Below, piece after piece: positions 1 to 46,968 of a DNA stretch of 64,000 bases. Under the pieces are notes generated by a model. It ran no database searches, was not told the origin of the DNA, and saw only the letters and a list, made by a program, of their open reading frames with translations. The stretch's first letter is position 1; each line of letters begins with the position of its first letter. The translations under genes were made by a program, and so were the position numbers. This DNA comes from Kalmusia sp. IMI 367209 (Eukaryota > Ascomycota > Dothideomycetes > Pleosporales > Didymosphaeriaceae). The stretch covers positions 496,001 through 560,000 of the forward strand of contig JAPEUQ010000006.1 in assembly GCA_027946365.1 (NCBI GenBank), given 5' to 3'.

Positions 1-1617
1 GTAAGCCTCCATGGCTCATAGCCGTACTGTGACTCAAGCGATTCGTCTCCGAAGCCGTAGTTGGTGTAAGTCGTCAACTTGCGGCTGGGCTGGCCCTTGT
101 TCCAGATGTCGCGGGTTTGCGAAGCCCACTTGATGGCGAAGTCGTCGAGCTTGGAGTTGGGGTGGTATCGGATGATAGCGGCACTGTATGTACGTATTAG
201 CCTGGTTCGGAAAAGGGTACTCGTAGTTATACGTACACAAGGAGATCGTCGTCACGTAGTGCGTAGGCGGTGCTGGCCGGGTCCACAGCAAGGACACCTT
301 GGAGCGAGTAGCCCTCCATAACAATAACTGAGCCAAGAATAGCCGGGTCATAAAAGATGTTCTTTTTGAACAGCTCAAAGACTTGACGCTGGGCAGTGAC
401 GTTGTAAAGCTTCAGGCCAGCGTTCATCTGCATGCGCTGGTCACCCTTCTCGCACAGAGGACCCCTCAGCATGGGTACCCTCAGCCACTGGGACTTGGGG
501 ATAGGTGAGCATCTGTGCCACAGAGTTGATCGGACCAAGATCTTCGAAAGGCTTGAGATACGGCGCGGCCAATTCTGCAGTGCCACCGATGTACTCAAAG
601 GCCCAGTGAATGACGGGGTCCGTCGTGCTGACGGACGGGTCAACCAAGTATAGGGACCAGTTAATGATCTCAGGAATCTGCTTCTTGGCCAGCTCATTGA
701 GAAGGGTATGGAACTTCTCAAGCTTAGTGGAGTTGAAGGTGTAGATCTTGCTGAACCAAAGATCGCCATCACGGGGATAGATCTTGTGCTCGAAGCTAGT
801 AACAATACCGAAGTTGTGGCCGGCGCCTCGCATACCCCAGAAAAGGTCAGGGTTGGAAGACTCAGATACGGTCGTAGTGGAACCATCGGCAAGAACAACG
901 TTCAGCTTGACAAAGTGGTCGAGAATGAGACCATGTCTTCCTTGCATACGGCCGTGACCACCACCAAGACCGGGTCCGAGGAGAGAGACGCAGCCGCAGC
1001 TTCCCGTACCTAAGAAAAGAGTAAGAATGATATTCTAGAGTCAAAAGTGTCTTGATTTACCGGTAATGTAACCTTGACCCCACATGTATTCTATGACCTG
1101 CTTGCCATATACACCACCCTGGAGGATAGCAGTCTTCTTGTCAGGCTGGATGGTAATGCCCCTCAGTTGGGTCAACGAGATCTGGATACCATTGAACTTT
1201 CCTAGAGTCTTTGTGGAGCCATGACCAGTGTTCCTAGTGTAGAAAGGAACATTGTAGCTGTTCGCATATTTGACCTTCACATCCATTAGCTCTCGATGCT
1301 TTACTAGACCGCTACAAAAGCACCAGACTTACAATCTTGGGAACATCAGCCTCGGACCCAGGCTCAATGACAAGGTAGACATTGGGGTAGTTCCATGTCT
1401 GCCAGCGTGCAGTTGCGTTCGCCCAGCGTGGGTCACCAGCAGTGTAGACGGCAGCACTGGTGGATAGACTGGGCATAAGCTCCTTTCCGACCTGCTCAGC
1501 ACTGAGTTTAGTCGCTCTGGGCGTGAAGTCCCTGAACGGCAAGGCGGAAGCCGCGGTGCTGGTAAGCAGCGTGGCGATAACGCAGGCAAGAAGCCCACGA
1601 ACAGATTGTCGGAGCAT
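1..1617 (-). CDS. FAD-linked oxidoreductase, BBE type (3' end outside window; one internal frame break)
   Basis: The product is a secreted or ER-lumen flavoprotein oxidase of the berberine-bridge-enzyme family, which in PKS clusters oxidises alcohols or drives oxidative ring formation. Translation from the ATG at 1615-1617 begins with a hydrophobic signal peptide (MLRQSVRGLLACVIATLL). Then come the FAD_binding_4 region with the TGHGS segment whose His normally bonds FAD, the GSCGC segment with a possible second flavin-linked Cys, LGPGLGGGHG, and a C-terminal YGYEPWRL typical of the family that runs off the edge. I place introns at about 1290-1332, 1018-1069 and 190-245. Between about 450 and 485 the frame shifts by one base at a GGGG run, with good family-like sequence on both sides and no room for an intron, so this is either a lesion or an error. 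It is the first gene of the PKS cluster. Family is certain; substrate is unknown. Confidence 0.85.
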
Positions 1618-2618
1618 GGCCAAGGACGGACTCTGCAAGGCACCAAAAAAATGAAGGTCAAAGATCCAATGAGAGAGGAGTTGAAGTCCCAGGATATGCG
1701 TGCTGGAATACCAAGACATGTGGGCTAGATTAATATATATATGAAGATCCAATGAGAGGCCTGTGCAGAGATGTATCCCCGGATTACTCGGCGATGCGGT
1801 GATTGAATGTCACATTATCGGGGAATCGGGTATTGCATAGCATAGTCGAACCATCATCATCAGAGTACGTACCTGAGTAAGACCCTTCGTGGAGGGCTTA
1901 TGCGGTCTTGCAATGGAATAAATAGAAACGTGCCCTGCATTAGTGGTGACAGAATACTGGAGTGGGTCCGGATCGTGCCGGGATTGTGGGGAGATTCTTA
2001 GGCGGTTGCTCCAATGCGCAGCCGTGATGTATAATACGCATTGCCGATCGCAAGGTACGCTGTAAGAGATCTAGCAAAGCTGGAACCTTCCCCAACATTC
2101 TCTCCCTCATTTTCTTAGTAAAGAATGAGTTCGATCACGTGACCATGTGATCATCAGTGAATTAGTGATGAAAACTTTTTCTTGATGTAATATAAATGCG
2201 ATTGTGTGCAAGGGTATATGATGCTATATTGAATATTGCCGTCAGGTTGCGCCCGAATCCAAAGCAATACCTAGAGCTGCACCGACACTAATGCTAAAAT
2301 ATGTTTGATATTTTTGAAGTAAACATTTTCTCCGTGGCGTCTATGGGCACGCATGAGCCATCCACTGTAAACTTTCTCAAAATCGAGTGCCAAGGTGGGA
2401 CAGAGTGCACTAGTTCGAAGGCTCAAGCGTGAAATCAAATTTTAATTGGGGACATGAACGAAACGATTGGTATCATAGAACTTCATTATTGATTGATTCG
2501 GATATTTCGTAAACCTAGACCATACCATAAGTACATCATCATTCTAGTTTTGCAGCCTGACACCCCTGACACCCTTCTCTGTGTCTGCCTAAGCATACCC
2601 CATACCCCTGATGTTAGA
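1618..2618. other. Intergenic, promoter of the FAD oxidase
   Basis: I see no credible gene here. The stretch lies between the start of the FAD oxidase and the end of the P450. It contains TCGGCGATGCGG at 1788-1799, 171 bp upstream of the oxidase start, a motif that recurs in other promoters of the cluster. Confidence 0.6.
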
Positions 2619-4429
2619 TCACGGAGCCATCGCCGGAGGCAATCGCTGAGCCGGCGTAAGTTTAACCAGCTGGTCCCAGTAAATCATGAGCGCCAAGTTC
2701 TTTGACTTCCACGGTTGATCAGGCGTGGTGCTCTCGAGCTCGAAGCGGCGGAACATCTGCATAGACAAATAAGCGAATTATCAACTTGAATCACCATGAA
2801 GCAACTCACCTCAAGACACAGCTTTTGCGTCATCAGTTCAGCCACATTCTTGCCAAGGCACTGCCTCGCACCATATCCCCAGCTCATGAGGTACTTGCTC
2901 ATCTCACGCGACCGCTCCTCACTCTCCAACCAGCGGTCGGGGTTGAACTCGAAGGCATCCTCGCCGAAGACGCCCTTGTCGCGGTGAATCACGTACGGGT
3001 TTGCGGCCATCTCAATGCCTTCGGGAACGTACTTGCCGTGAACTTTGAGGCCGCCCTTGGAGACCATACGCGGAAGAGCTACAGGCGTAGAGGGGCTGAA
3101 ACGTAGTGTTTCCTGTACGCACGCATTGAAGAAGGGTAGCTTCTTCGCTTCCTCGTGCTTGACAACGCCGGGTGAGAAGGCACCGGCAGCTTCGGCATTT
3201 TGGATTTCGCGACGTAGACGAGCATGTACTTTAGGGTTTTGAATCACGTAGTTTGCGAAAGGACCGATGAAGGCTGCGGTGGTGTCGGGCCCAGCGACCA
3301 TGAGGACGAAAGCTTCAGCCTTGATTTCGTCTTCGGTCATGTATGACCCGTCCGCATTTTTAGCGTTCATCAGGCTTGAGACATTGTTAGCCTTATGGTA
3401 AATATCTTGATTTTGGATTCGTACTTGTCTAAGAAATCACCGTGAGCGTTGGCGTGGCGATCTGCCAAACGTGCTCGCAACATGTCATCACGATACTGCA
3501 CACGTCAGTAGGTTCCTTGGTGTCCTAAACTTCTAAATCTTACCTTCATAATTTGCCCGGTACCGGTTCCGTCACCCGGGCTAGGCATGAGATAATCTCC
3601 AAGAATGGGCGCATTCAAGAGCGGATTCATCCAATTTGGTATAGCGGCAACAATACCGGCCATAGGTGCCATAGCGTGAAATTTCTGGATCAAACCTTCG
3701 ATATCCTTACCCTGGTCGACAAAACCAACCTTTTTGCCAAAAGCCATGGACGATATCGTGTCGTACACGAACCACCTACACGGCGCATTTGTCAGTCTGA
3801 CGTGTATCCAACAGGAATATTCAGAGACTCACTTGATCCAATCGGAGATGTCCAATGGCTTACCAGTGTCGACGAATCGTTTCTGCCACTGGCTGAACAA
3901 TTCCTCAATAGTTTCGTCTACATCAGCCTCTATCCGTCGCAGACTTGAAATCTGAAACGAGGCAGCTATGCGCTTCCGCTTAGCGGCATGCTCCTTGTGG
4001 TCAAGAGTCTGGAATGGTGGGCGAAGACGGCCAAGAACACCAGGGCTGTAGAAGTCGGATTTGTCGGCGTTACGGTGGTAAACAATGGGAACAAGCTTGG
4101 GATCATTGAAAACCAACATGTTGGGCGCAACGCGAACGATTGGCCCTATAGATAATTTAGCTACATTGCACCAATAAACACGGAGTAGTTGGAATTCTAC
4201 CATAGGTCTTGTGGTAATCGATGGCTCTGGTATGCGATTGCTTCGTCGATAGAATCCATAGCTTCCAGAAATTGGAGATCGATGCCCAAAATGGACCAGG
4301 GAAGGCGCTTAAAGAGTGGAAATAGCGGGTGTAAATACAACTCGTGAAATAGTATACCAAGAACGCGGATCCAGCTGCTTTGAGGACATTGATGGGCGTA
4401 ACATCTTCCGGGGAGATAATCTGCGCCAT
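2619..4429 (-). CDS. Cytochrome P450 monooxygenase
   Basis: This is a microsomal P450 of about 500 residues, which would hydroxylate or epoxidise the polyketide. I read six exons. The start at 4427-4429 gives an N-terminal membrane anchor (AAGSAFLVYYFTSCIYTRYF) followed by a proline-rich hinge (LSAFPGPF); an upstream ATG at 4621 would only add a non-anchor leader. The I-helix oxygen-binding motif AGPDTT, the K-helix ETLR (ExxR), the PERF-like FNPDRW and the haem loop WGYGARQCLGK with the axial Cys are all present; Trp replaces the usual first Phe of the haem loop. The last short exon (from about 2755) ends at the TGA at 2619-2621. It is divergently transcribed from the SDR at 4724, sharing a 294-bp intergenic region, so the two are probably co-regulated. 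Substrate cannot be told from sequence. Confidence 0.93.
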
Positions 4430-10098: not shown

Positions 10099-13000
10099 AT
10101 GGCTCCGATTAGACTGACAGATTCCTCAAATAAGCCTTCTCCTGCTTCAGGCCCTGCCTCAAAGGAGCCTATTGCCATTTGTGGATTGGGTATGGTTTAC
10201 TCTACCGGCCCAAATATGGTGACGCACAATATGATACTAACAACATTATTCAGCATGTCGATTGCCAGGAGATTCCACTTCGCCTGCTAAGCTTTGGGAA
10301 CTCATCGCTAATGCCCGGTCTGGCAAGTGTGCCGTTCCCCAGTCGCGATTTAACATCGATGGCTTCTACCACCCCCAAGGCAATGATCGCTCTGGTAGCG
10401 TAATCACTAAAGGAGGATACTTCCTGAATGAAGACACTCGGGAATTCGAAAATACCTTCTTTGGAATTAACAACTTGGAGGCAACATACATGGACCCGCA
10501 ACAGCGTAAGCTGCTCGAAGTCGTCTACGAGTGTCTCGAGAACGCAGGTGTTCCTCTCGATGCTGCGTCTGGTTCCAACACTGGTGTTTATGTTGGTAAC
10601 TTCACATTCGATTATTTAATCATGCAAAGTCGCGATGCCGATTACCTTACTCGATACAACTCGACTGGTATGGGCACGTCTATCCTGGGAAACCGTATCA
10701 GTCACGTGTACAACCTGAAAGGCCCGAGTTTGGTCGTTGATACTGCCTGCTCTTCCTCACTTTACTGTCTGCACGTTGCTTGCGTCGCATTGGAGAACTA
10801 CGAGTGTGATGCCGCCATTGTTGCAGGTGCCAATCTTATCCAATCAGCCGAGCAACACATAGGCACTATGAAAGCTGGTGTGCTGTCGCCCACCTCGGAA
10901 TGCCACACCTTTGATGCTTCTGCCGATGGTTACGGACGAGCTGAGGGTATTGGCGCTCTTTACGTCAAGCGATTAAGCGACGCTCTTCGGGACGGTGATC
11001 CCATCCGCAGTGTGGTTAGAGCATCTGCTATCAACGCGTAAGTTTCACCGACTTACTACAAGATCCCCATATTAAACTATCCAGAAACGGCAAAACCGCC
11101 GGTATCGCGCTCCCAAGTGCCGATGGCCAGGAGGCGGTTGTCCGCAAAGCGATGACTAAGGCTGGCCTGAGCCCCGACGACATTTCGTATCTCGAGTGCC
11201 ACGGTACGGGCACAAAGGTCGGTGATGCTATCGAAGTAGAGGGTCTTTCCCGTGTCTTCAACCGTTCTCCTGATCGTCGCTTGGTCATTGGGTCCGTTAA
11301 ATCCAACGTTGGTCATTCCGAGGCTGCAAGTGGTATTGCTGGTGTGATCAAGGCTACTATGGCGATTGAGCGTGGCCAAATTCCCCCGACTCATGGCCTC
11401 AAGAACCTGAACCCGAAGCTGGCGCCTTTTGAAAAGGGTGGTAAGTCTACCACATATACGCAACGCACTGTGAACACAAGCTGATTGTGAATCTTTTTCT
11501 AGTTTCCATTCCGACAGAGCTAGTCCCGTGGCCAGGTAAGGCTGGAGAAGTAAGACGTGCTGGTAAGCCAAGTATGCTCCCATCGAAACCACAGTGACTG
11601 AGCAACGCAGGTATCAACTCCTTCGGATATGGCGGAGCTAACGCCCACGTTATCCTCGAGCAAAGCCCTCGCCTTGGCGTTGAGAAGGAATTGGTGACTC
11701 CGCAACCTACTGTCGTCCTTCCTCTTTCTGCTGCTACCACAGCTGCTCTGGAAGGACGCAGAAGTGATCTGATCGACTTTAACTTCAAGGACACGAACAT
11801 CCTCGATCTAGCTTACACACTTGGGTCTCGCCGCACCAACTTCCAGAACCGCGGCTATCTGCTTGCCTCGACCTCTACAAACCTTGGCGACACTTTCAAC
11901 ACGAAAGACCTCGTGACAGGATCCGCATCGTCAAGTGTGTCAAGCCAGCCCTTGGCTTTCGTCTTCACTGGTCAGGGATCTCAATGGGCCGGCATGTGCA
12001 AAGAGCTTTTCCAATTCCCTGTCTTTAGCGACGCTTTCGCCGAGATGGATGCTGCACTGCAAAGCATTCCCGAGTCGCCGTCTTGGACACTCAAGGAGGC
12101 GGTCCTTGACACTTCGAACCCAGACCTGATTAACACTCCACAGCGCTCGCAGCCATGCTGTACTGCGGTGCAGGTAGCTTTGATCCAGCTTCTTGCTTCG
12201 TGGGGCATCGTGCCAAATACGACTGTGGGCCACTCTAGCGGTGAAATTGCGGCCGCTTTCGCAGCCGGCCATCTGTCTGCGGCTGAATCTATCATTATCG
12301 CCTATTACCGTGGTTACTGTGTATCCAGGAAGACGAGTGACGGTGCTATGATGGCTGCTGGACTATCCGAGACTGAAGCAACCAAGAAGATCGCCGAAGC
12401 TGGCCTTGAAGGCAAAATTCGCGTGGCCTGTGTCAACTCGCCAGAAGGTGTCACCATTTCTGGAGATAACCCTGCCATCGACAGCATAATTGCTGTCCTT
12501 CAAGGAAACGGAACCTTTGCAAGAAAACTCAAGACGGGTGGCCAGGCTTACCACTCGCAGCATATGTTGCCAGTTGGCCAGGAGTACCAGAGCTTCTTGG
12601 ACAAGGTTCTGCCGACTTTGGCCCCCTCCACCACGCTACCAAAGGCTGCGACGGTCGTGTCCTCCGTCACCGCGGAGCCCAAATCGAATGGCTTCAATTC
12701 CAGCTACTGGAGAAGCAATCTGGAAGGCCAAGTGAAATTTGCACAAGCTATCAAGAGGCTCCACGCTGACGGTCAGCACACTTTCTTGGAGCTTGGTCCT
12801 CACACATCCATGGAGCTTCCCGTCAAGCAGACTCTTGCCAAAGAGGGAATATCCGGATCTAACGTCCAGTACTTCGGTCCTATTAAACGCAACACTGAGG
12901 CGACTGAGACTGCTCTCAGTGTGCCAGCCAAGCTCTGGCTGCACGGCTATGAGATTGACTGGAACCGCGTCAACGGTTTGAGCGACGCTCCAGAGGGAAC

Positions 13001-16000
13001 GTTCAGTGTTGTGACCGATCTTCCGCGCTACCGCTTCCAGTATTCCGAGTTACTCTGGAACGAGGGACGTCCTAGTCTTGAATACCGTCAGCGAAAGCAC
13101 ACGCGCCACGAACTCCTTGGAACCCTCATTCCTGGTGGCAACGGCGATGACTTGATTTTCCGCAACATCATACAGGTGTCGGACTTCAAGTGGCTCGAGG
13201 ATCATAAACTCGAAGATACGGTAGTGTTCCCGGGAACTGCGTATCTCGGCACGGCCATGGAGGCTGTCATGCGTGCAGCAGACATACCTGTTTCCGAGAA
13301 GCCCACGTTCAGCTTCTCAAATGTTCACGTCCTAAACGCCTTAGCGTTGTCCACTGAAGCAGCCGCGAAGATGGAAATCTTTACATCACTGCACAAGTCC
13401 AACATTACCAATGCTGCAACCTCCTCTAAGTGGTGGGATTTCGTCATCTCGACTTTCCAGAATGGTTCATCTGTCCAGCACGCCAAAGGTAGCGTCTCTA
13501 TCACGACTGAGAATGTTACTTTGCAATCAAAGTATGGAGCTCCTGATGGCACCCTGGAGCCCACTGCGAAGCGTACCTGGTACGATAGACTTGTCAAGAA
13601 TGGTTTGAACTATGGCCCTCACTTCCAGCCCATCACTGAGTTCTTGACCCCCAGCATGGCCTCGGCGCCTTATGCTGGTGCTAAATTGCCGCTGATCACG
13701 ACATCCGGAGATGAATTAGCAGTTTATCCCATCCATCCCATCACGCTTGATGCCATGCTACAAACTGCTATAGTAGCTACTGCAAATGGTCTTCCTAACG
13801 AACTCAGCGCTAAGGTACCGACTAGGTTTGGATCTATTACTCTCAAGACTACTACAAGCGGACCCTCCCAAATCTACGCCCTGTCCAAGAGCGTCGGTTT
13901 TGGAGCTGTTGAGACTGGATCCGAAATCGTGGATGCCGATGGTCAGGTTGTGGTTCAATTTGACAAAGTGCGCTTGAGCCCATACTCCTCCGGCGCTCCT
14001 GTGGACACAGCGGGCGAGCGTCATCCTATGCTCCGTAACTTGTGGAAGCCGGATCTCTACGGCTTGGGATTCATTGATGTCAGCGACTTCCAGAAGCACA
14101 TGGATGGATTTGTGGCTGAAGCAGACTCACCACTTGAGGATGATAGCATCATTCGTCTCGGTGCTGCCCTTGATCTCGCGGTGCACAAGAATTCCCGTGT
14201 GCGCGTTCTTGAGTTAGGCAACGACATCCACGAAATATCGCTTGCTGTCTTGGATCTGCTTGCCTCCAAGAACGAATTTAAGAGGGCTGCCAACTATAGC
14301 ACGGCTTCTTTCACCGAAGCTGGCACGCTTTCAGGAGGTCTCGTTGATTTGGAGACTGGCGAGCGCTCTGAAGCCGAAGATTTGGCTGGCGAGAAATACC
14401 ATATTATCTTGATTCCAGTGGCTGGACCCTGGCTTGAGCAGCACGCTGACAAGATCCAAGAGTTCCTCGAAGAGGATGGCACAGTGCTGGCTCTTGCTCC
14501 TACCTCGTCTGCAAAGGCATTCGCTTCCGATGTCTTGACTTCTCAGGCTTACCCTATTCACTCAGGACAAACGTCGGTCGTGATCGCCCGAAAGACTCCG
14601 GCAACCGAACAGTCCACCAAACTGCAGAAATACTTGATCGTTGAACGCGATGGGCAATCGGCTCTTGGATTCGGTATCGAGAATGCGCTATCCGGAAAGC
14701 AGGTGCACCGTGTGCAACTCCAAGAGGTGACTGAGGAATTGGTTTCTGATAAGCCAATTGTTTTCAACCTTGCCGAAGCCAAGGACCCACTATTGTCCGT
14801 CATCAATGACGCCGACATGCTCAAGATCAAGCTCTTGACGGACAACGCAGGTTCCATGGTGTGGGTCACAAACGGAAACATCACCAAGGGTGAACGGCCG
14901 GACTTCGCGCTTATTTCTGGTCTCGCTCGTGCTCTCTCTCTTGAACAGCCATCTCTCAAGCTCTATGTATACGATATCGATACCGCCGCTCCAGATGTCA
15001 CTGCGACCACCAGCAAGCTCTTGAGCGTATTGAACCAGTCGAGCCGCTACCCTGATCTTGAATTCGCCCAGAAGGGTAATTTGGTTCACGTAAGTCGTTT
15101 CGTGCCCGACGATGGTCTCAACACGGCTTTCAGGTCGAAGCAGGGTCTTCACCTGGAGACCTTGGCACTCAAGGATGCAGGCGAAGTGCGTCTGGACATT
15201 GCAAAGGTTGGACAGTACGACTCAATCTTCTATAAGGCGCAAGAGGTTGTTGGCAGCATCCCACCCACGCACATTCGCATCAAGGTAGCATCAGCCGGTA
15301 TCAACGCAAAGGACTACTATCTTCTCGGTGGCAAGGTTGACGTCGTGAACGCGACCTCGTCTAACGAGTACGCCGGTTTTGTTGAAGAAGTAGGCTCCCA
15401 GGTCACCAAATTTCAAGCAGGGGACAGTGTCGTCGTCATGGCGCCTTCGCACTTCCAGACATACCAGACCATTCCTGAATGGGCTGCCGTGAAGCTTGAG
15501 GAAGGGGAAGACCTAAACGTGGCGGCAACGCTTCCTGTTGTGTGGGCTACTGCCATCTACGCTCTGCATAACCGAGCTGCAATTCAAGCTGGCGAAAGTG
15601 TTCTCATCCACAGCGGCGCTGGTGGTGTTGGCATTGCCGCCATTCAGATTGCCCAGCAGGCCGGTGCTGAAGTATACACCACCGTCTCCACCGAGGAAAA
15701 GAAGCAATATCTGGTCGATACTTTCGGTCTTAACCCTGCCAATATCTTCAGCTCGCTTGATGACTCTTTCCTTACTGGCATCCTCGAAGCGACTGGTGGC
15801 CGAGGTGTGGATGTGGTGCTGAACTCTCTCACAGGTGATCAGCTGCACGCAACCTGGCGCAGCATTGCAGAGTGTGGTCGCTTTGTTGAGATCGGCAAGA
15901 TGGATCTTACGAACGCTGGCCGTCTTGAGATGGACCAATTCTTGAAGAACACAACCTTCACCGCCTTCGACCTTGCTCATCTTTACTTCTCCGAAAATCC

Positions 16001-17459
16001 CAAGTTGAACGCGACTTGGCACCAGCTTCTCGATGACACCGTGCAGCTTTGGCGATCTGGCAAGCTGGCCGGGTTCGATACCCTTCAGGTCTTCGACATA
16101 GCCGATGCTACTGCGGCTTTCCGTCGCTTCTCCTCTCGAAGCCGTATGGGCAAGGTCGCAATTAACCTACAGAATGGTGACTCAAAGATTCCAGTGCGAC
16201 CATTGAAGCATGCCACTCGCTTCGCTAGCGACAAGAGCTACGTAATGGTTGGCTGCTTGGGAGGTCTTGGACGTACGCTTACCCGATGGATGTTGCAGCG
16301 CGGTGCGAAGAAATTCGCCTTCTTGGGACGTTCTGGTCTTGACAAGCCGGCTGCTCGTGCTCTCGTCAATGACGTGAAGCTCGCCGGTGGTGAGGCTGTA
16401 GTTGTCCGTGGTGATGTCTGCAGCGAGAAGGATGTTGCTGCCGTGGTTGAAGCTGCGACAGGCGAAATTGGAGGTGTTGTTCAGGCTGCTATGGGCTTGA
16501 ATGAGGCACTTTTCACAGTGATGCCCAATGAATGGTGGCACACCGGTATCGATCCCAAGGTTCACGGAACGTGGTATCTGCACAACGCTCTACGCGCCTC
16601 CGGACGCGACAGCAACCTTGATTTCTTCCTAATGACCTCTTCCATCTCAGGCAGTGTCGGCACAGCTACCGAGTGCAACTACTGCTCTGGCAATTACTTC
16701 CTTGATATCTTCGCCCGTTACCGCCGCTCCCTTGGCCTACCTGCCACCTCAGTCGGACTTGGTATGATTTCCGGAGCTGGGTACCTGCATGACAACCCAG
16801 AGATTGAGGCTCTGTTGCTCCGAAAGGGTATTCAGGCTATTGACCAGGATGAACTACTCCAGATTCTCGATATCGCTCTTAGCGCTAACGATATCTCTGG
16901 TATCCACCATCCGTACGATTACGCCGCCACTGGTCATATTCTCACTGGTCTCGAGCCCATGGGTCTCAAAGAGCTCCGTAAGAAGGGTTTCGAGGGTACC
17001 AATCCTACTCTCGATGACCCTCGTGCCAACCTTCTCTCCAGCGCTCTCGACGGTCAGGAAGATGTCCTACGTCACAGCTCCACCGACGGTCTCCCGCCAC
17101 CTCTTGCGCAGGCGCTTGAGGAAGGACAGACACTCAAGGAAGCGCTGCTCGACTTCATGCGCAAGCGATTTGGTAACCTTACCCTCATCAAATTCGATGA
17201 TGTGGACGTCCAGCTGCCATTCGTCAAGTTTGGTATGGACAGTATGTTGGCGGCGGAGTTCAGGACCTGGTTCTACCAGACACTTACGGTGGATGTTCCC
17301 TTCCTTATGTTCATGGACAAGAACACTACGCTGGAGGGAATGAGGGACTTTGTGCTCGGAGAAATGGAGGGTGCGAAGGCGGCTGATACGAAAGAGGAAG
17401 CGGCGACGGTGAGCGCCGAGACTCCTGCTGTGGCGGCTGCTCCTTTGGTAGCAGCATAG
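10099..17459 (+). CDS. Highly reducing type I polyketide synthase (2379 aa)
   Basis: This iterative HR-PKS is built from five exons (10099-10189, 10254-11037, 11085-11440, 11503-11562, 11611-17459); these sum to exactly 2380 codons. Domains in order: KS about 25-450 with active Cys in DTACSSS (about residue 196) and HGTGT; AT about 545-870 with GHSSG (Ser about 639); DH about 930-1230 with His about 962 (EDHKLED) and Asp about 1144 (HPITLD); a methyltransferase-like region whose SAM motif reads LELGND rather than LEIGxGTG and so looks inactive; ER about 1640-1960 (HSGAGGVGIAA); KR about 1970-2150 (GCLGGLG, Ser, NYCSGN); and ACP with GMDS, phosphopantetheine Ser about 2308. There is no thioesterase or reductase tail, so release needs a partner or water. 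It would make a reduced, C-unmethylated chain from malonyl-CoA. It is the core of the cluster. Confidence 0.96.
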
Positions 17460-23500: not shown

Positions 23501-26500
23501 GTGTCAATCAAGAAGACGTTGGTAGTGCCAGAAGATGATCATGGAATTGAGATTGTTCTCAGTATGGAGCTTGAAGATGGAGCAACGGCCAAGTCGCCTG
23601 GATGGGCCACCTTTTCGATCTCTTCCATCGTCCGTGACACGGAGCAATGGACCGAGCACTGTTCCAGTCTCACCAAAGTTGAGGTCTCTGCATTCCAGGA
23701 AATTGCTCCCATCAACACGACCATGGATGGAAAAGCTGTAGATGCAGAAACTTGGTATAAGCGCTTTGCTGAGATGGGTCTTCAATTTGGCCCCTCATTC
23801 CAGGGCTACTCAGACATACGTGCAGATTCGCCTCGGGCTCATGGCATGCAATGGCGGTCAGGCTGAAACGGGTAGTGTCCAACTTCCAATCCATTTGGAT
23901 CAAATGCGATTCAAGCTCGGTAGCCTGAAACACCAAGAATGGGCTACTGGTCTCGCAAAGGGCGAGTTGCGTGGCCTCCGTGGTGCCTATGCTCAGCTCC
24001 AAATGCTAGGTGAAAATGGAGACGTCATATTAGACGTAGACAATATGCGCTTCATTGACTTAGCCAACGAACAGCAATCATCATCTACCACGAGTCAAAC
24101 AAGTAAAGTATATTCGAGCCCGTTCAATCGCCTTATCTGGAGACCCGATATCCGAACCTTTAGTAAGAACCAATACAGCGCTTTGTTTGGTGCTTCCGAG
24201 GCCAATACTGGGCCATTTCCACAGCTCTCTAAAATCTTTGACCTAATGGGCCATGCCAAACCTGACCTCCGAGTATTACAGCTGGGAGCCAGCCGTGACT
24301 TAGGTGCAAGTCAAACAGTCTTGAAAACTCTTATCGATTCAAATGGCATCAAACGCTACCGGGAGTATCTGGTGACCGACATCTCGGAAGATCTACTCGC
24401 GGCTCCAGATTCTGAACTCCGAGATATCAAAACTTCGGTGTTAGACATCACTAAGGACCCTTTGAAGCAAGGCTTCAAGCCCGTATATGATATTGTCTTA
24501 TCAGTCAATGCTGTTCATGATTCTGCCAGCGTGGAACAAGCTATCCGGAATTGTGAAAGACTTCTCCGACCAGGTGGCAGGCTCGTGTTGCTCGAGCCTA
24601 CCGACAATAATTGGGATGAATTCTTGCTAAAAGCTGGGTTCAAATCAGGAGCTGAACTGATGCTGAAGGAGCATGATTTGACCCTCTTGATGTCCACTCA
24701 ATCCAGCACAGAGAAGCAGCGTGACGAAAGAATACCAGAGCTTCACCTTCTCCACGGTAACAAAGGAACACCAGCGCTACTGACTCACCTGGCGCATGAA
24801 TTCGAACGGCATGGACTAAGTACCAAGACCATTTGCTTCGACGATGCCCATGATATCTCACCCAACTCACGTGTGGTGGCATTTTTGGACGAAGAAAATC
24901 TTCTTCTCAACACAGACCAGAATCGTATTAGGCTTTTCCAATATCTTGCTGCAAACTCTGTCAGTATGATCTGGCTTACATCATGTGGGATGGTGAAGGG
25001 TCGCAACCCCGATGGGGCTTTTGTCTCGGGGTTATTGCGCACATTGGGTTCTGAAACCCCGCTAGCCAATTCCTCTCGATAGACATTGATGCCAATGACT
25101 TCACACTATCTAGCGAGGACCTTGATGAGCTAGTACGCTGTGTTGTTGACCAAGAGCTCGCTCTACATGCGGAAAGTGGAGACGATAGCGTGAACCGAGA
25201 ATACACTTGGCAAGACGGCTGTTTATGGGTTAGTCGAATTGTTCCCGATGATCATCTTCAAGGATATGCCGATGCATTAACCGCTCCCGATGACCAAGAA
25301 CTTGAGACGGTGCCGTTGAGCACCCAAGGCCCAGTCAGAGCGGCGTTTGGGACGCCCGGAATTCTCAGCTCCCTGTATTTCAAGCCATATCTGGAGCTTC
25401 TCCAACCACTGCCTAAAGATTGGATCGAGGTCAAAGTACTTGCAGTCGGTCTCAATTGGAAAGACTTGGGTCTTTGTACCGGTCGATTTGACCAGAACAA
25501 TCTTTCAAATGAATATTGCGGTGTTGTAACCAAGCTAGGATCCAGCGTAAGCCACCTCGAGATTGGCAACCGTGTCTACGGTATGGGCAAGGGCCATTTC
25601 GGAAACTACACGCGTGTTCCAGCGGTACTGGCACAAAAGCTTCGACCGGACATAAATCCCATTCAAGCCGCTACCATCCCATTGGTGTACATGACTGCAG
25701 TGTACGCTTTTGAGCATGTCACACGATTACGGAAAGGCCAGAAGGTACTCATTCAATCCGCCTCTGGCGGTCTCGGACTTGCAGCGATTCAACTAGCGCG
25801 TTCAAAGGGCGCCATAATATTCGTCACCGCAGGTACGGAGGGAAAGACTCGCTTTTTGACCGAGCAAATGGGCATACCCTCCAGCCACATCTTTTCGTCG
25901 GGCGATATTACGGATGTCAAACGCATGGTTGACGCAACACGAACTGGTGGCTTTGATATGATTCTCAGCAACTCACAAGGGGATATGCTTTACGAGTCTA
26001 TCAAGGCATTGGCACCTCTAGGCCATCTGATTGACGTCGGTCGATTAGATGTCACGAGTTCTAATAACATTGCCCTAGAGCTGTTCCAGAAGAGCGCCAG
26101 CTTCACATCTTTTGACCTTGGCCTGGTCATTGAGCGCGACGTCGAACTTGGCGGAGAACTGATGCGGTCGGTAGACGAGCATTTTACCGCGTCACGTATC
26201 GGTCCCATTAGTCCAAATACAACATTAGACATTTCACAGCTTGACCAAGCGCTACTCCGCTTCTCGAAGGGAACTCACATTGGAAAGATGGTGGTATCAT
26301 ACCAAGACCCCAATTCCAAGATCAAGAAGCAAAAATCTGTCATTCCTGCGACATTCGACCCAGAGGCTCGTTATGTCCTAGTTGGAGGACTGAGTGGCCT
26401 CGGGCGGTCAATTGTCCGCTTCATGAGTGATCGTGGAGCCCGACACTTGGCTGTCTGGTCCAGAAATGGTCCAAATAATCTAAGTCCCGAATCCAAAGCT

Positions 26501-27631
26501 CTCATTGATGAATTAGCGGCCAAGGGTGTCAATGTCCAGGCTATTACCTGCGATGTTAGCATACGGGATCAGGTCATACGGGCCATACAATATGCCAGCT
26601 CTGACCGCACTGTGCGCGGAGTTCTCAATTTCGCGGTCTCTTACCAGGACATCTCGTTTGACAAGATGACCGCAGAGAAGTTCCACGAAGGTATGGCAGC
26701 GAAGGTACTAGGGACTAGAAATCTCCATGAAGCCACGGCTTCCTTGCCTTTGGACTTTTTCTCCATGATCTCTTCATTTGGCACTGTCTATGCGTTCCCA
26801 ACGCAAAGCACGTATCTAGCGGCGAATAACTTCCTGGATTACTTTGCGCGCTATCGGCGACAATGCGGGCTGCCTGTATCAACAGTCTCTCTGGGATTCA
26901 TTAGTGACTTGGGCGCATTAACACAGGACGCCGTCACTGTCAATCTCTTTGCACGCACGAAAGGCCAGACCGTCACGGGAAGCCAGGTCTTACGTATGCT
27001 AGAGCCGGCCTTTGTAAGCGACAACAACAATCATAATGCGCACGATCTATGGCTTGGCTATTCAGAAGATCCTTTGTCGGGAGCTAATATCGTTACGGGC
27101 ATAGACCCTGCCGTTCTGGCCGCTGTGAAACGAGAAGAGGCTAAGGTGGCCAAGATTACCTCGTCCAGCTCAGTACCTAGGTGGTATCATGACGCTCGTG
27201 TTTCTGTGATGTTGCGCGCCGTGGATGATGCATGGCGACACCAAGCTGGGGACGATGCCGCAAAGGTTATGCAGGATATGGACAACACTGCCGACAAATC
27301 ACCAGCTGCGCAATTGCGGAGGCAGTTCCAGGTGTCAATGAATATAGTCAAGGAGCAAGAGAGCAGTGATAACAAGGCGGAATACCTCAATACAGTCGCG
27401 TTTGTCACCGATGCCATCCGGAAGACGGTCGCTGGAATGCTTTTTGTTGATCCGTCAGCGGTAGATCCGTCGGGCACAGTTGCAGACCACGGTATTGACA
27501 GTCTACTGGCTGCTGAGTTTCGGAACTGGCTTCATAGTGCTTTCGGGAAGAATATTAGCATGTTAGATTTGATGGACGCGAGGACGAAGATCGACGCACT
27601 GGCCCAAAAAATTGTGGATGAGGCAGCGTGA
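20525..27631 (+). pseudogene. Degenerate highly reducing polyketide synthase
   Basis: This is a broken HR-PKS with remnants of every domain. KS starts abruptly at KLLECTYEAFENAG, so about the first 100 residues are missing; the active Cys remains in NSACTSA. One intron (21121-21169) is still spliceable. In-frame stops are TAA at 20996-20998 and TAA at 22179-22181. Frame breaks occur near 23050 (one base lost between KS-AT and DH), near 23830-23860, and near 25070. At 23830-23860 the sequence passes from FGPSFQGYSDIRAD directly to MACNGGQAE, so the DH segment with the catalytic Asp is missing. AT keeps GHSSG, the MT-like part reads LQLGASR (inactive type), ER keeps QSASGGLGLAA, KR keeps GGLSGLG and STYLAANN, ACP keeps GIDS. 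KS-AT are joined by an Asn-Gly-rich linker. It is not a recent copy of the neighbouring PKS: the two proteins differ widely. Confidence 0.93.
21642..21780 (+). repeat. Asn/Gly-rich repeats in the KS-AT linker of the PKS pseudogene
   Basis: The translated linker repeats a short unit of the form NGxNGH / NGxSNGY about eight times, encoded by imperfect repeats around AATGG. Such low-complexity linkers occur in fungal PKSs and may expand by slippage. Confidence 0.7.
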
Positions 27632-40590: not shown

Positions 40591-41319
40591 TTAGTCAACC
40601 ACGACCCGAGCCCTTGTGCCTGCTGGCCCTTTGAATCCAGTCGTGTTTTTCAACTCTAGAGTTAAAACAAAGCCCTTCTTCCATGAATCCGCGCCATCGA
40701 TGACTGGCGGAGCAATGATATCTGTCCTATTCTCTGCAATTGTCGTATGATTCAACCCAAACATTTTGTCCCTACTTTCAACGTACGAAGCGTTTAATTG
40801 CCCATCTGCAGTATAACCATTGACGATCTCGGGGATGCCAAGCGGGATGGTGTTGTTCTTAGAATCGTAGCGCCAAGTGTGGAATGTTTTGCCATATGTG
40901 TTCACAAGGATTTTCATAGCTTCCTTGTCAACATTCTCGGGCATTCCAGGTTCGACCAATAACCCGCTTGTGACTTCGTATTGGTGTGAATGCCAGAGCT
41001 CCCTCTCTTCCATGGGCAATGTTTCGAAAGCTGGACCTGAGATGATGTATTCCACGCCTGCAAGACGCGCAGGGTTGGTATCGGGCACGAAGATGGCGCA
41101 CTGGATGAAGTCGGCGGACATGATACTGCAGTGGTGATTTGCGTGAAGCACCTGGCCAGGATGTCCGGAGATGAAGTGGAAACCATTCAAGAACAACATG
41201 GCGGAAGAGGGCCCAATCAACCCAAATTGATTTCGTGGTTCGCTACCCTGAGAGAACACATGGTTCGCAAGAGTGAGTAATTGCGCGAAAATTGTACGAA
41301 GGGTTATAGAACGATGCAT
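40591..41319 (-). CDS. DUF1264 / OBAP-like protein with N-terminal signal (242 aa)
   Basis: This single-exon protein matches the oil-body-associated-protein family (DUF1264). Family segments are HHCSIMSADFIQCAIFVPD, LAGVEYIISGPAFETLPMEE and ELWHSHQYEVTSGLL, with the characteristic WHSHxYEV block. Fungal and plant members are small, and their biochemical role is not established. The first 24 residues (RTIFAQLLTLANHVFSQG) look like a signal peptide, so this copy may be secreted or routed to the ER. It has several N-glycosylation sequons near the C-terminus (NTT, NAS, NHT, NRT). It lies about 1.9 kb from the RiPP-like precursor; I have no evidence that it belongs with it. Confidence 0.8.
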   Translation of the reverse strand: MHRSITLRTIFAQLLTLANHVFSQGSEPRNQFGLIGPSSAMLFLNGFHFISGHPGQVLHANHHCSIMSADFIQCAIFVPDTNPARLAGVEYIISGPAFETLPMEERELWHSHQYEVTSGLLVEPGMPENVDKEAMKILVNTYGKTFHTWRYDSKNNTIPLGIPEIVNGYTADGQLNASYVESRDKMFGLNHTTIAENRTDIIAPPVIDGADSWKKGFVLTLELKNTTGFKGPAGTRARVVVD

Positions 41320-43185
41320 AGTGGAATTTTCGACAGAAAGGTGGCCGTGTTCAGTGTTAACGATGAAATCTGCGCTGGCTATCCAGTCTACACCAGCAGT
41401 AGCCTTTTATGTCGCACGATTGTTGGCATCGGACTCCCGACCTCCGTCTTTCGCCGAATCCCCAGGGTCAATTCATCACAATCCTGGTTGTCATCGGCGA
41501 CGTTGCGAACAAACTATCCCGTATTGGTCCCTTTTTCTCCCAGTTGAAGGTGATAATAAGCTTTGCGGAGCTGCTGTCGCATACACAGTGTTCTGAAGAC
41601 GGCAAAATTCCATTCCCGGATGCAGTCGGAGTCGTATTCAGTAGTGTACGTATTGAAATCGGGTCTTGATACAGCCAAAAAGCCTTCATCGAGGATTACA
41701 TCGACAAGAATGGTGCAAGAAGTACGTATACGGCGCATTCAATTCGTTAGACATGATCCAGCCGTGCGTTCAAGGTTTCTGGAGCTGTTGCAATTCTGCG
41801 AAATCGAGATTTTGTGATCGTGTAAGCGGAGCAACATGCTGAGTATTAGCTCGGCGACCTGATTTTGTTCGGCGACCTAGCCCTGGTTCTCCCCTCCTTT
41901 GATCGGACAGCCCCACCTCCTCAATGTCCAGATCTTCATCTTTTACCCGTCTATGTTACTTCTTGGGTAAAAAACTTACGCAAATATGCTCAAGTGCACG
42001 CTTTGTCAGCCGCGCTAGCCGGGAAAGTCGGCAAGGGATTAGGTGATCTTGCAAAGATGGAGGAGCCTTCGGACAAGATAAAAAGAAGACGTACCACTTG
42101 AAGCAGGCCTTGGGCTTCTTATAAAGTAATGCAATGCCCATTTCACGTGGAATTGCGTGATTGACGCTACGCGCTATGAAGACAATTTTTACTGTGTCAT
42201 TGTCAATTCCGGTCAAGCCAATGTATTGTAGGCCCTATCAGTCTCGAATATGGTTGGTCACACTTCTATTGTGTTCAGCAATTACACTCTGAATGCCTCA
42301 TCCATCGGCCGGATGCCTGTATTGTAACGGACACGAGGAAGGCGATAGTTGACGTGCGACAACACAAGGTATCCGCTTTACGCTTTCTAGATGTTGGCCT
42401 GACCAATTGAGTCTTTATCATGAGATTGATAATCGCTCGCTCGATGTTGATATAAATTTAATTCAAGTACAAGTGCCGTAGCTGGGTCGTGATACCAATG
42501 GCAGCTTACCCTCCAACGTTTGTAGACGCCATGTTCAAATTTGTGTACTTTAGGCTCTCATATCACTACCCCGATCACCAGATAGCTGTTCTACCTGCGA
42601 CGGTGATGTCTTGTGGTTTGGAGAGCCTTTTTGCTATCTAAGGAAGTTGTCACGTGAGCAGGATTCCGATGTTCTTGGCAACACTCAGCAACCCGGCGAT
42701 TCATGCACCCCTTTCATCTCATATAGTAATATAAGAGTTAGAATAGGATGACATGTGTTTTAGGTCTTAATAATCGCGGGTAATTTGTGGCTGTTAGGGC
42801 AGGGGGTCCGAGAGACGACACCTCACCCACCACCTTACTCATCGCAGGATAGTAATACATCGCAAGACAGCCTAGATCCTACTTACCAATTGCGGATCCC
42901 ATCGAAAATATGATGCAGTATATCACGCGTAGCCTGTATTATTTCTCCCAACGGCTTACGTACTGTTGGCATATTGCGAGATTTCCACGTTTACCTGAGC
43001 TTGCCGAATCAAGAATGGAGATACTAAGAACTTCTTATTGAAGGACTAGATCAATATCAATCTCATGTCTCCGATTTGTGAGATTAAATAACTGTCGTTT
43101 ATAAATCAATGACCAGCAATGTGATTCCAGTCCGTAATAGTACGAACTTGTTACATATGGTAAGCGAGACCCGCCTACGTGTGCT
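41320..43185. other. Gene-poor region
   Basis: 1.9 kb without a supported gene. Several short open frames are present on both strands, none with family features. Confidence 0.45.
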
Positions 43186-43829
43186 CTATTCCTTCAGTCC
43201 GAAATAAGCAACGTTTACGAAGGCTTCATCAACAGAAGTCTCCTCCTCCCCACGCTTAGCCCTCGCCTCAGCTGCTTCCCTCTCCTTTAGTCCAATGTAG
43301 GCAATGTTGTTGAAAGCTTGGTCCACGGACGTATCTGCCTCCTCGCGCTTGGCCAAAGCCTCGGCTTCCTCTCTCTCCTTCAAGCCAAAGTATGCGACAT
43401 TAACAAAGGCCTGATCTACGGAGCTCTCATCTGTAGATGCTTCAGCCTCAGCCTCAGCCTCTCTTTCCTTCAGCCCAAAGTACGCAACGTTAACAAAGGC
43501 TTGATCAACAGAGGCCTCCTCTTCTTCACGCTTCGCAGCTTCAGCTGCTTCTCTCTCCTTCAGGCCAAAGTAGGCGACGTTAACGAACGCTTGGTCGACA
43601 GAACTTTCATCGGTAGATGCTTCTGCCTCTGCCTCTCTCTCCTTCAGACCGAAATACGCAACATTGACAAAATGCCTGGTCCACAGAGGTCTCTTCCTGC
43701 CAATCTTCAGCAAATCCTTACAGCAGACTTTGATGGCGTGCAGTAACTCACAGTGTCCGGTGTAGGGACTGGGGCAGCCAGAACAGAGGCCACGAAGAGG
43801 GCTGAGAGGATGCTGCTGGAAAACTTCAT
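43186..43829 (-). CDS. Repeat-containing secreted precursor peptide, Kex2-processed, dikaritin/RiPP-like
   Basis: A signal peptide (MKFSSSILSALFVASVLAA) starts at the ATG 43827-43829; an intron (43697-43751) follows codon 26. Then come six repeats of about 27-31 residues, each with SVDQAF followed by VNVAYFGLKE; repeat 5 reads NNIAYIGLKE. Spacers are of two kinds: ERE(A)-EAEAEA-STDES without a dibasic site, and a type ending AKR-EE, with Kex2-like KR sites after repeats 2, 4 and 5. This is the layout of fungal Kex2-processed repeat peptides such as the ustiloxin and phomopsin precursors: secreted, cut in the Golgi, core with an invariant Tyr. In repeat 1 a TTTT run (43669-43672) has one T more than the other repeats, breaking the frame from the expected CAG acceptor. 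An acceptor four bases further on (GAAG) restores the repeat frame. Two UstYa-family genes lie next to it. The bioactivity is unknown. Confidence 0.82.
43189..43696 (-). repeat. Six tandem in-frame coding repeats of the precursor peptide
   Basis: Six units of about 81-93 bp, highly similar in the AYFGLKER part and variable in the spacers. Spacer types alternate: repeats 1 and 3 have the STDES spacer, repeats 2, 4 and 5 the KR spacer; repeat 6 ends the protein. This suggests duplication of a two-repeat unit. Confidence 0.85.
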
Positions 43830-44544
43830 ATTGGCGGTCAAGGAAGAGAACCTGTGGCTTCGAAGGATGATTGACACACTTAAGACAACGAAGTGAAGAG
43901 ATGGGTCTACGCACTATTCCAACGACAAGGTCGGAACTTGACTTCTTATACCACCCGAGACCGACAGAGCAAGCTCTGACATAATTGTGTCAGAGTTGGG
44001 TTGTAGCACGTTTACTAACCGGAACTTAGTTAATCATTCACCATCGACCGTTATAGCAAGGGCCAACAAAGGCTTTCGAACCGAGTATGCAAGACAATCT
44101 AAGCCCCACATCTTCTGGACCTGAGTATTACAACTAGAGGGGAAGGTAGTTCTGAGTTGCGGTGGACACATGTCGCACGAACACTATCGTTGGATGCGCT
44201 ACAGAAGGATCCGAAGCAGTCGGTGAGTTAATTGGCCCGATGCGACTATCATGTGCTTATTACTGCATTTACTACTTCATGTTGTTCGCACCAAGTTCGG
44301 TTAAAGGCATCTCATACTATCCTAGATATCCCTGTCTATGCGTGCATGTATCACGCTAGAAGGATCCGGAAGGATAATGGGTCGCCTTACCGGCGATCGC
44401 GGAATATTCCAAAGTTCTTGTTTCAACGCCGTACGACCACCATTTCTCGCACGATAGCAGCTGACAGCACTTGAGAGAGACTACCCAACGGCGGCATCCT
44501 CACTCGACTTCCTCAACCTTTTCGCTCCTTCTGTGCGCCGAAAG
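43830..44544. other. Intergenic between precursor and UstYa-family gene
   Basis: The stretch contains the divergent promoters of the precursor (minus) and the first UstYa-family gene (plus). No gene is seen in it. Divergent layout with 715 bp suggests possible shared control. Confidence 0.5.
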
Positions 44545-45527
44545 ATGAAACCATCACTAGCCAGAGACTACCAACCTGTCAATCAGCGAGAGAGCATTGA
44601 AGATTCCGATGACGCAGAAAAACTGAGCGAAGCTTCCTCGACTGAGTTTGGTCAAAAGAGTCCTCGTTTGTATCTTTCAAAAAAATCACTCTGGACTGTA
44701 TGCGCTCGATGGGTACCTTGGTTTCTCATATTATGTCTGACGGTGTCGAACTGGTACGCATGGGCGAAGCACTCTACCGTTAAACCTCACAATGCAATAT
44801 TCTGTAAGCTCTCTTAGGAACATTCATTTCTCCTGGCTATTCTTACAATTGAATCACAGCTCCAGCATCGTCAGCGATAAAATACAAGGAAGTCGTCTTC
44901 CAAGCAGGCATTGATAGTGATACAAGCGCCTATCAAGGCCCACCCTCAGAGGAAAGCGACCATATGTGGGAAGAGCTACATAGATGTGAGAAATCCACGC
45001 ATCCGGGTGATATTAAAGCTAACAACATTCTGTTAAGATGGGGTCAGTAGGATCCCGATGAGCGAAGCTGCCCAGCTCGCAAACCGAACATCGCCCATCC
45101 CTGGCGACGAAGGGTACTACGTCGTGATTCTGGAAGTTTTCCACCAACTCCACTGTCTGGTACGTCCACCTGCCTAGTATTTGCATCGATGATCTTGAGC
45201 TGACCCTACATTTAGAGTCACGTACGCAGGCGCCTTTTCTGGAATGAGTCGACACCTCCGGATGATGATGAAGCATTGTCAATGAAGCATTTGGATCACT
45301 GCATCGATTCGATCCGCCAAAGCCTTATGTGCTCAGCCGATGTTACACCGTTACCATATGTATGGTGGCGGAAGTACAATCAGCTGATGCCGTCGTCTGC
45401 AGTTACGCACACTTGTCGTGACTTTGATGCACTGCGCGAGTGGGCAAAGGAACATCGAGCTGGAAAAGTGGATGCGTTCGTGCAAGTTCACGATCCTCTC
45501 GGCGAGCAAGTAGTGTACGATGTATGA
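44545..45527 (+). CDS. UstYa-family (DUF3328) protein (272 aa)
   Basis: Members such as UstYa and UstYb of ustiloxin biosynthesis are membrane proteins that act in oxidative cyclisation of fungal RiPPs. Four exons (44545-44803, 44860-44985, 45039-45160, 45216-45527) add up to 273 codons. A cytosolic N-tail is followed by one transmembrane helix (WVPWFLILCLTVSNWYAW) and a lumenal domain with the two signature blocks: HQLHCL and HLDHCIDSIRQSLMC. The end THTCRDFDALREWA is also typical. The first of the blocks is interrupted by an intron right after HQLHCL, as I know from relatives. It lies next to the repeat precursor and a second family member at 46212. The reaction on this peptide is inferred. 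Confidence 0.92.
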
Positions 45528-46211
45528 AACATTTCAAAAGCAGGCCAAAATCTTTGGATCGACTGTATTTCTCGAGTGCTGCAAATGACGTGAAGAGAGC
45601 CCAACCGAATCTATGAGCTGCATGAGTCTGAGACCAGGGTGTTGTTCCTTGCTATACAGGACTAGCCTAGCGCAAGTGTATGTCACTAGCACGCCTTAAC
45701 TTTGCTGATCGCCTAAGCTTCGCGTGCTTATAATCGCCCCGCATGGTACTACACGTGTAATATCTGGTATACACTAGGTTTACCTTCCTATCGTAGATGT
45801 GATCCTCATGCCCCCATTTGGTAGGTGGTCAATTCGAATCCAACAGCTACCCATGCTCCGCCTAGTACCATTATACACAACCGTGCAAGTCTACATTAAG
45901 CCGAAGGAGCGAGACCTCGACATTAACGATGACATCGGTGGCTCACCTTTTCATTGTAGCTGCGGGGTTGTCTCACCATTGAAAGATGTTCCTTCGTCCC
46001 GCACTATCGGTCTCTTAATCCCGCATCAACCGGTGTGACCCAAAATCTCGCTCACAGGGGTTTCGACTGCCCCATTTGCCCCCGTTCGCAACAGACACTC
46101 TTTTCTGGATAGTGCACGCTCAGACTTCGGTCAGAGGACCTGGGAGCTGTTGTCATCTCCTCCAAACTCTCTCTCTCCATCCAGGCTACTCGCCCACTAC
46201 ATTCGCCCGGT
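45528..46211. other. Intergenic between the two UstYa-family genes
   Basis: No supported gene; the open frame at 45799-46038 has no family features. It holds the promoter of the second UstYa-family gene. Confidence 0.5.
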
Positions 46212-46968
46212 ATGGAGTCCGCGCAAGACTCCGCACGCACAACTCTCTGCGACGAAGAGAAATTCAAAGATTTTTCAGACATAGATTCAGAAGACGCGCC
46301 GTCACTAATACAGCATCCCACAAGATTTCGTTTCTTCCGTCCTATCATCATCTTGATCGCCATCATTGTGATTTCAATACCACTTATCTACCTTACCATT
46401 CCTCGCCAAAAGAACCTCAGATATGATCAATGCGGCACGACCGCAGACGAGGCACGAGCACGTGACTGTGTCTTCGAGACAACTGGATTCACCTGGTTAC
46501 CGAAAGAATGCCACGACGTAGAAACCGAAATCGAATTCCTCGAGTTCATCGCGAGTCACGAGTTGAATATCTATCGCGATACAAATTACACGGATGTTGT
46601 GCCAATCGAAGAAGTAAAGCTAGGCAACGGGCCAGGCTGTTCGTACACCTTTGATCCCTTGGTAGACTGCTATCACTTTGCTGACAGCTATCGCAGTTTT
46701 TGTGCGCCAACAATACCATGTAACACATTGCCTATTTCTCCTAAAAAAACTCCACCGCACAACTGCGGCTGGTAAGATCCTCGACGGTCAGATCATGCCG
46801 ACACATCATACCGAGCACTGCATCGATATGGCACTGAAGCCGCCTGGCTTTCGCAAGGACGCGATACAGCTCTCGTATACGAAGTATCCGTATTGTGGAA
46901 AACCTGGGGGGTTTGACGTAGCGTGGGATCAACAACATGGCAAGGCTGCAGGATGGACAGATTATTGA
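46212..46968 (+). CDS. Second UstYa-family (DUF3328-like) protein, UstYb-like (232 aa)
   Basis: This protein has a polar N-tail, one transmembrane helix (FFRPIIILIAIIVISIPLIY) and a lumenal domain. Signature segments are ARDCVFETTGFTWLPKEC, YHVTHCLFLLKKLHR and THHTEHCID, i.e. two His-x-x-His-Cys type blocks as in the longer members of the family. I infer two exons, 46212-46638 and 46697-46968, joined by a 58-nt intron with a GTTCGT donor; this restores the frame between KLGNGPG and FFVRQQYHV and gives 233 codons. The donor is uncommon, so the boundary is moderately secure. With the neighbour at 44545 it makes a pair, as in the ustiloxin cluster, where two such proteins are needed for cyclisation. 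Confidence 0.85.

Follow-up and report, generated by a model that had tools for sequence, protein, structure and literature searches.

Dikaritins are ribosomally synthesised and post-translationally modified peptides (RiPPs) whose clusters are described as pairing a repeat precursor with UstYa proteins (PMC10512285, PMC12048977); ustiloxin, phomopsin, asperipin-2a, epichloecyclin and victorin are listed as members, and the same 2022 review speaks of five dikaritins reported and 838 types of repeat precursor predicted (PMC10512285). Umemura 2020 described Kex2-processed repeat proteins (KEPs) as having an endoplasmic reticulum signal peptide and at least three tandem repeats of at least 8 amino acids (aa) between the Kex2 sites KR, KK, RK or RR, and reported that DUF3328 genes are concentrated beside repeat precursors and that 65.6% of the repeats at such places contain tyrosine (PMC7329392). 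Here we analysed a stretch of 64,000 nucleotides (the window) from Kalmusia sp. IMI 367209 (GenBank assembly GCA_027946365.1, contig JAPEUQ010000006.1, positions 496,001 to 560,000), an endophyte whose published assembly has 30 contigs and 42.78 Mb and was built from long reads with short-read polishing (PMC10027605). We found that a repeat precursor gene lies next to the genes of two predicted membrane proteins, UstYa1 and UstYa2 (Table 1), and judge from the sequence, with a probability of roughly 0.8, that this locus is a minimal dikaritin-type RiPP cluster whose product would be cyclic.

The locus shares with the described dikaritins a signal-like exon, tyrosine-bearing tandem cores, KR sites and an adjoining UstYa gene, that of UstYa1, which matches the UstYa/DUF3328 profile PF11807 with 177.6 bits and starts 715 bases from the precursor. 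At the level of the genes, the dikaritin-type reading given in a preliminary description of this DNA, a repeat precursor adjoining a UstYa gene as in the published accounts (PMC10512285, PMC12048977), stands. The locus differs from the described dikaritins in that its core was not found in a full-text literature search, its second enzyme is probably a remote UstYa relative, KR is absent from two of the five spacers, and a Pfam scan of 30 of the 57 window frames of at least 140 aa (together with pieces and splices of the three cluster genes) revealed no family of tyrosinases, peptidases or methyltransferases. The last result agrees with the earlier statement that no obvious methyltransferase or peptidase is nearby. 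The asperipin-2a cluster is presumably alike in being small and in having a UstYa-type protein that would cross-link without a tyrosinase; its core differs from that of the window. One DUF3328 gene is given for asperipin-2a (PMC7329392), whereas the window has two HxxHC proteins. The locus had also been called undescribed, which holds in part: AYFGLK was not found in a full-text literature search, so that the core is undescribed as far as that search reaches (supplementary tables, outside its reach, may list it), whereas the kind of cluster is already well known and at least ten more precursor/UstYa pairs occur in the same genome.

The precursor had been described as secreted, with six repeats sharing AYFGLKE and KR sites in some spacers. 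Reading-frame translation gave six units, five with FVNVAYFGLKE and one (unit 5) with FNNIAYIGLKE, and Tandem Repeats Finder scored the array at 292 with a period of 90 bases; KR follows units 2, 4 and 5, which places dibasic sites in three of the five spacers. The signal-like exon, whose hydrophobic N-terminus was read by eye, is resembled by the N-terminus of the precursor relative P0002 and by an exon, also with a GTGAGT donor, at the paralogous locus L026 (both described below). Measured against the KEP definition, the precursor has six repeats and an N-terminus judged hydrophobic by eye, yet two of its five spacers have no Kex2 site. It was the sole open reading frame (ORF) of at least 60 aa in the window to pass a test for repeats plus dibasic sites, in which frames longer than 800 aa were cut to 800. 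Three Pfam matches of the precursor frame, all below their cut-offs, were taken as chance, the best being YpmT with 24.4 bits against a cut-off of 25 over 14 residues.

Comparison of the six core units of the window, summed over 15 pairs, showed 95.5 synonymous differences at 106.7 sites (proportion pS 0.895) and 20.5 non-synonymous differences at 388.3 sites (proportion pN 0.053). Among the five identical peptides (10 pairs summed), 65 synonymous and 0 non-synonymous differences were counted. The two proportions are quoted since pS is saturated and dN/dS prints as 0. The precursor units at L026 showed the same pattern (pS 0.734, pN 0.061). The high pS together with the low pN means that the repeats are old, and that the peptide rather than the DNA has been preserved. 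On this codon evidence and the ORF test above, the precursor repeats are beyond chance, and past selection has preserved the peptide; the pattern speaks for the history of the precursor, without proving a present-day working gene.

Two adjacent UstYa-family membrane proteins had been proposed next to the precursor, and both carry HxxHC motifs. For UstYa1 the assignment is borne out: its match to PF11807 covers profile positions 6-220 of 220 (gathering cut-off 25 bits), HQLHC lies at residue 164 and HLDHC at 194, and the protein has a hydrophobic N-terminal stretch. An N-terminal transmembrane stretch is a trait of the UstYa family. The last exon of UstYa1 has relatives, and a sequence search yielded no solved relative of the protein, its single match having E 0.42. 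The splice model of UstYa2 is identical over all 232 residues to the deposited protein P0004 of the same strain (hypothetical protein N0V90_006397). UstYa2 has HVTHC at 150, HTEHC at 180 and a hydrophobic stretch from residue 45, and scored 15.4 bits (E 0.017) against PF11807, so that for this protein family membership in the strict sense did not stand. The His and Cys of both its HxxHC motifs are invariant in all 27 aligned sequences, 17 of which match UstYa at E <=0.1 (best 3.2e-4), and profile-profile comparison of UstYa2 with UstYa gave probabilities of 71.6% and 68.5% with both HxxHC motifs aligned. HxxHC has been named as the UstYa motif (PMC12048977). These results suggest that UstYa2 is a remote relative of UstYa, and we term it UstYa-like.

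An AlphaFold model of the UstYa2 family had a mean pLDDT (predicted local distance difference test) of 78.1 and a pTM (predicted template modelling score) of 0.64; Foldseek of this model against PDB gave 27 matches at E <=10, none of them at E <=0.001. NCBIfam returned no family for any of the five proteins submitted. A search with UstYa2 found 54 proteins at E <=1e-5 among 144 candidates, including the window's own protein and the L026 paralogue; the named relatives are, as we take it, all from genera of Pleosporales, and Paraphaeosphaeria, Karstenula, Byssothecium and Bimuria are among the genera that have them. The possibility that UstYa2 is a broken gene was rejected: the frames overlapping at 46666-46775 are explained by a 58-base intron (GTTCGT...CAG), and the spliced product is the deposited protein.

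Relatives of the precursor were few. Among 7996 scored candidates two were found. P0002, in which the core is repeated, matches 62% of the query at 63%, and P0003, which is fragmentary, matches 34% of it at 64%. Both retain FVNVAY(F/Y)GLKERE and have dibasic sites between units, and their spacers diverge. P0002 and P0042, a UstYa2 relative from the same source, report the same longest contig of 26,840 bases, which suggests that the two are linked. Six pairs of UstYa1 and UstYa2 relatives also report equal longest contigs, one of them in Byssothecium circinans, and when the lengths were shifted by 1-200 bases the mean number of coincidences was 0.09. The preliminary description had held that precursor homologues lying without UstYa neighbours, together with a lack of co-expression, would speak against it; on the neighbours the answer is indirect, P0002 having a longest contig equal to that of a UstYa2 relative but to that of no UstYa1 relative.

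The same genome holds further loci of this kind. PF11807 gave 102 exon matches, 100 of them above the cut-off, which by hand fall into about 55 places. We took 20 UstYa regions of 10 kb, representing the highest-scoring places rather than a random sample (19 places, L017 and L018 being one), and five 8-kb control stretches placed arbitrarily at round numbers. Kex2-type repeat ORFs were found in ten of the 20 regions (L011, L013, L017, L019, L021, L023, L024, L026, L027 and L028). The strict repeat script accounted for nine of these, and L013, which escaped it because the best-scoring word cut through KR, was added by inspection; the script found none in the five controls. A Poisson comparison of 10 in 200 kb with 0 in about 100 kb gave about 0.02, the control being small. 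With the window's own, the genome thus has at least 11 precursor/UstYa pairs, about 20 of its roughly 55 UstYa places having been examined. An Ascomycota survey with other criteria puts the mean number of repeat precursors, whatever their kind, at 5.25 per strain (PMC7329392), beside which the endophyte would have a large set.

The layout of precursor (-), UstYa (+) and UstYa2-like gene (+) occurs at four loci, namely the window, L026, L011 and L017, and the repeats differ between them; outside the window this is three of the 20 regions, and the L017 place has additional UstYa genes. At L013 and L018 a UstYa2-like match is also present but the genes are arranged differently, and at the threshold used the remaining precursor-bearing regions gave no such match. 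The genome search returned 11 UstYa2-like matches, two of which are the window exons, and each of the 11 has a PF11807 match no more than about 7 kb away. L026 (G000:C26:1822900-1832899) is like the window in gene order and orientation, in a UstYa2 that is 56% identical, in the ending of the signal exon and in the GTGAGT donor, whereas its unit is PTVDEGFSKIIYKR-like, a dibasic site follows every unit and most core residues are changed. Placed side by side, the units of the window (SVDQAFVNVAYFGLKERE), P0002 (TVDADFIGIVYNGLKKREE) and L026 (PTVDEGFSKIIYKRE) agree, by eye, in VD, in one aromatic residue, in one tyrosine and in ending with a basic stretch. In the window version this stretch is KER, and KR comes only later, in spacers 2, 4 and 5.

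We propose that the signal peptide would take the precursor into the secretory pathway, where the two membrane-anchored HxxHC proteins, with their domains in the lumen, would oxidise each core and form a bond between the VAYFGL tyrosine and a side chain close to it. The KR sites would be cleaved by Kex2, other peptidases would trim the acidic EAEA-type spacers, and the small cyclic peptide would then be secreted.

Several observations weigh against a dikaritin-type cluster with a cyclic product. Spacers 1 and 3 of the precursor, of the STDESS type, are without a dibasic site, and the core ends in KER rather than KR or KKR, so Kex2 alone would leave units 1 and 2, and units 3 and 4, joined; cutting at KR only is predicted to give four stretches with 2, 2, 1 and 1 units. 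We infer that either KER is cut as well, or another protease completes the release of the window units. The score of UstYa2 lies below the PF11807 cut-off, and the scanned frames lack a tyrosinase, which according to the KEP survey is required for ustiloxin and phomopsin (PMC7329392). UstYa-type genes are described as serving polyketide and non-ribosomal clusters too (PMC12048977), and polyketide synthase frames lie in the same window (11.6-27.6 kb). Of the 54 UstYa2-type proteins only P0042 has a longest contig equal to that of a precursor relative, and no UstYa1 relative has one; nor did the search for precursor relatives give any from a named species, though the UstYa2 of Byssothecium circinans is 75% identical. 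The deposited annotation of the strain seems to be without the precursor protein, none being present among the returned proteins of about 90-287 aa. Finally, use of the ordinary CAG acceptor for the precursor intron (ending at 43697) would split unit 1 across two frames.

This last point is central to the most durable of the other explanations, that the precursor gene is decaying and that the out-of-register unit 1 blocks a working product. With the CAG acceptor, the start of unit 1 and its remainder stand in different frames, unit 1 of P0002 is read through in a single frame, and the apparent lack of the precursor in the deposited annotation would fit as well. However, an alternative AAG acceptor four bases on (ending at 43693), which makes a 59-base intron, puts the signal exon and all six units in one frame by eye. 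AAG is also the acceptor in the model of UstYa1 intron 2, where the junction matches the deposited relative P0068, and, by eye, in the L026 precursor. Tandem repeats are hard to polish, and the change of frame within unit 1 may go back to a real slip in the gene, to an error of the assembly or to the choice of splice site. The repeats are free of stops, the reading frames of UstYa1 and UstYa2 are complete, and the assembly was, by its published account, polished with short reads (PMC10027605), all of which argue against decay, and we regard it as unlikely.

A second explanation is that the precursor gives linear pheromone-type signalling peptides, cut by Kex2 and trimmed of EAEA dipeptides, and that its UstYa neighbours are incidental. 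Fungal alpha-pheromone precursors are likewise secreted and repeated, with Kex2-type sites, and their EA-rich spacers, like those of the window, count for this explanation. In the KEP survey 6120 of 7878 repeat precursors had no nearby DUF3328 gene, which would also allow it, but the same survey gives pheromone precursors beside DUF3328 genes in three cases only, almost never (PMC7329392), whereas the window precursor is beside one. The precursor/UstYa/UstYa2-like layout recurs, moreover, at three further places of the genome. The pheromone reading was rejected on these UstYa neighbours and appears improbable. The weakest explanation, that the repeats remain uncut within a secreted structural protein, could draw on the two of five spacers without dibasic sites, but it was rejected as very improbable on the three KR sites of the window precursor, the dibasic sites between the units of P0002 and P0003, the UstYa neighbours and the dibasic site after each unit at L026.

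Within the dikaritin-type reading, we consider it the more interesting part that the cassette is duplicated, that its cores have diverged and that its second enzyme belongs to a family outside PF11807. The cassette might be a distinct and repeatedly duplicated RiPP subclass of Pleosporales, in which a fixed enzyme pair, the second member from an unnamed non-PF11807 family, was copied together with a precursor whose core changed almost wholly, the Kex2 site of the window version now being KER and another protease freeing the ring; we offer this tentatively and hold it to be rather doubtful. As a small defined cluster with a paralogue, in which like enzymes meet diverged cores, the locus would allow a direct comparison of what UstYa-type proteins recognise.

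Other precursors of the genome were noted in their own right. A genome search with the repeat protein found, besides itself, only L010/L027 (G000:C30:1360400-1370399; 36%, E 0.03), where a separate repeat precursor (L027 3021-3431, (-)) has units like TYAPLVYTGGLKR and an adjoining UstYa gene; its YTGGLK gave only three papers in the full-text search, all unrelated. L013 (G000:C25:95100-105099) has an 11-copy precursor at 2881-3621 (-) with units TNIYPGIKYLGDED, KR between copies and several UstYa genes, and L024 (G000:C23:3915900-3925899) a 20-copy precursor at 1580-2431 (-) with units like xxDEDAAKY(S/G)KR near UstYa matches. At L011, L017, L019, L021, L023 and L028, Kex2-type repeat ORFs lie near UstYa genes with a different repeat in each. 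Surveys based on annotated proteins would overlook the window precursor (43186-43829, (-)), because the deposited annotation seems not to include it.

Table 1. Coordinates of the cluster genes and of other features in the window
Feature	Position	Strand	Details	Basis
Precursor repeat region	43186..43680	(-)	6 units; stop codon at 43186-43188	reading-frame translation
Precursor intron	43697..43751	(-)	55 bases with CAG acceptor	by eye
Precursor signal-like exon	43829-43752	(-)	26 aa, MKFSSSILSALFVASVLAAPVPTPDT	hydrophobic N-terminus read by eye, GTGAGT donor next
Intergenic stretch between divergent precursor and UstYa1	43830..44544	(.)	715 bases	
UstYa1	44545..45527	(+)	272 aa; four exons 44545-44803, 44860-44985, 45038-45159, 45216-45527	splice model and PF11807
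UstYa2 (UstYa-like)	46212..46968	(+)	232 aa; exons 46212-46638, 46697-46968	splice model
DUF1264	40594-41406			Pfam
2OG-Fe(II) oxygenases	57-63 kb			Pfam
Zn-cluster factor	60-61 kb			Pfam
Polyketide synthase frames	11598-17456, 25055-27628	(+)	acyltransferase, dehydratase, zinc-binding dehydrogenase, KR and carrier domains	

The intergenic stretch between the two divergent genes may be a bidirectional promoter. Besides the families in Table 1, Pfam found SDR frames, HET, DUF7703, MFS and P450 in the window. The polyketide synthase frames, with P450 and SDR frames upstream, form a separate natural-product locus.

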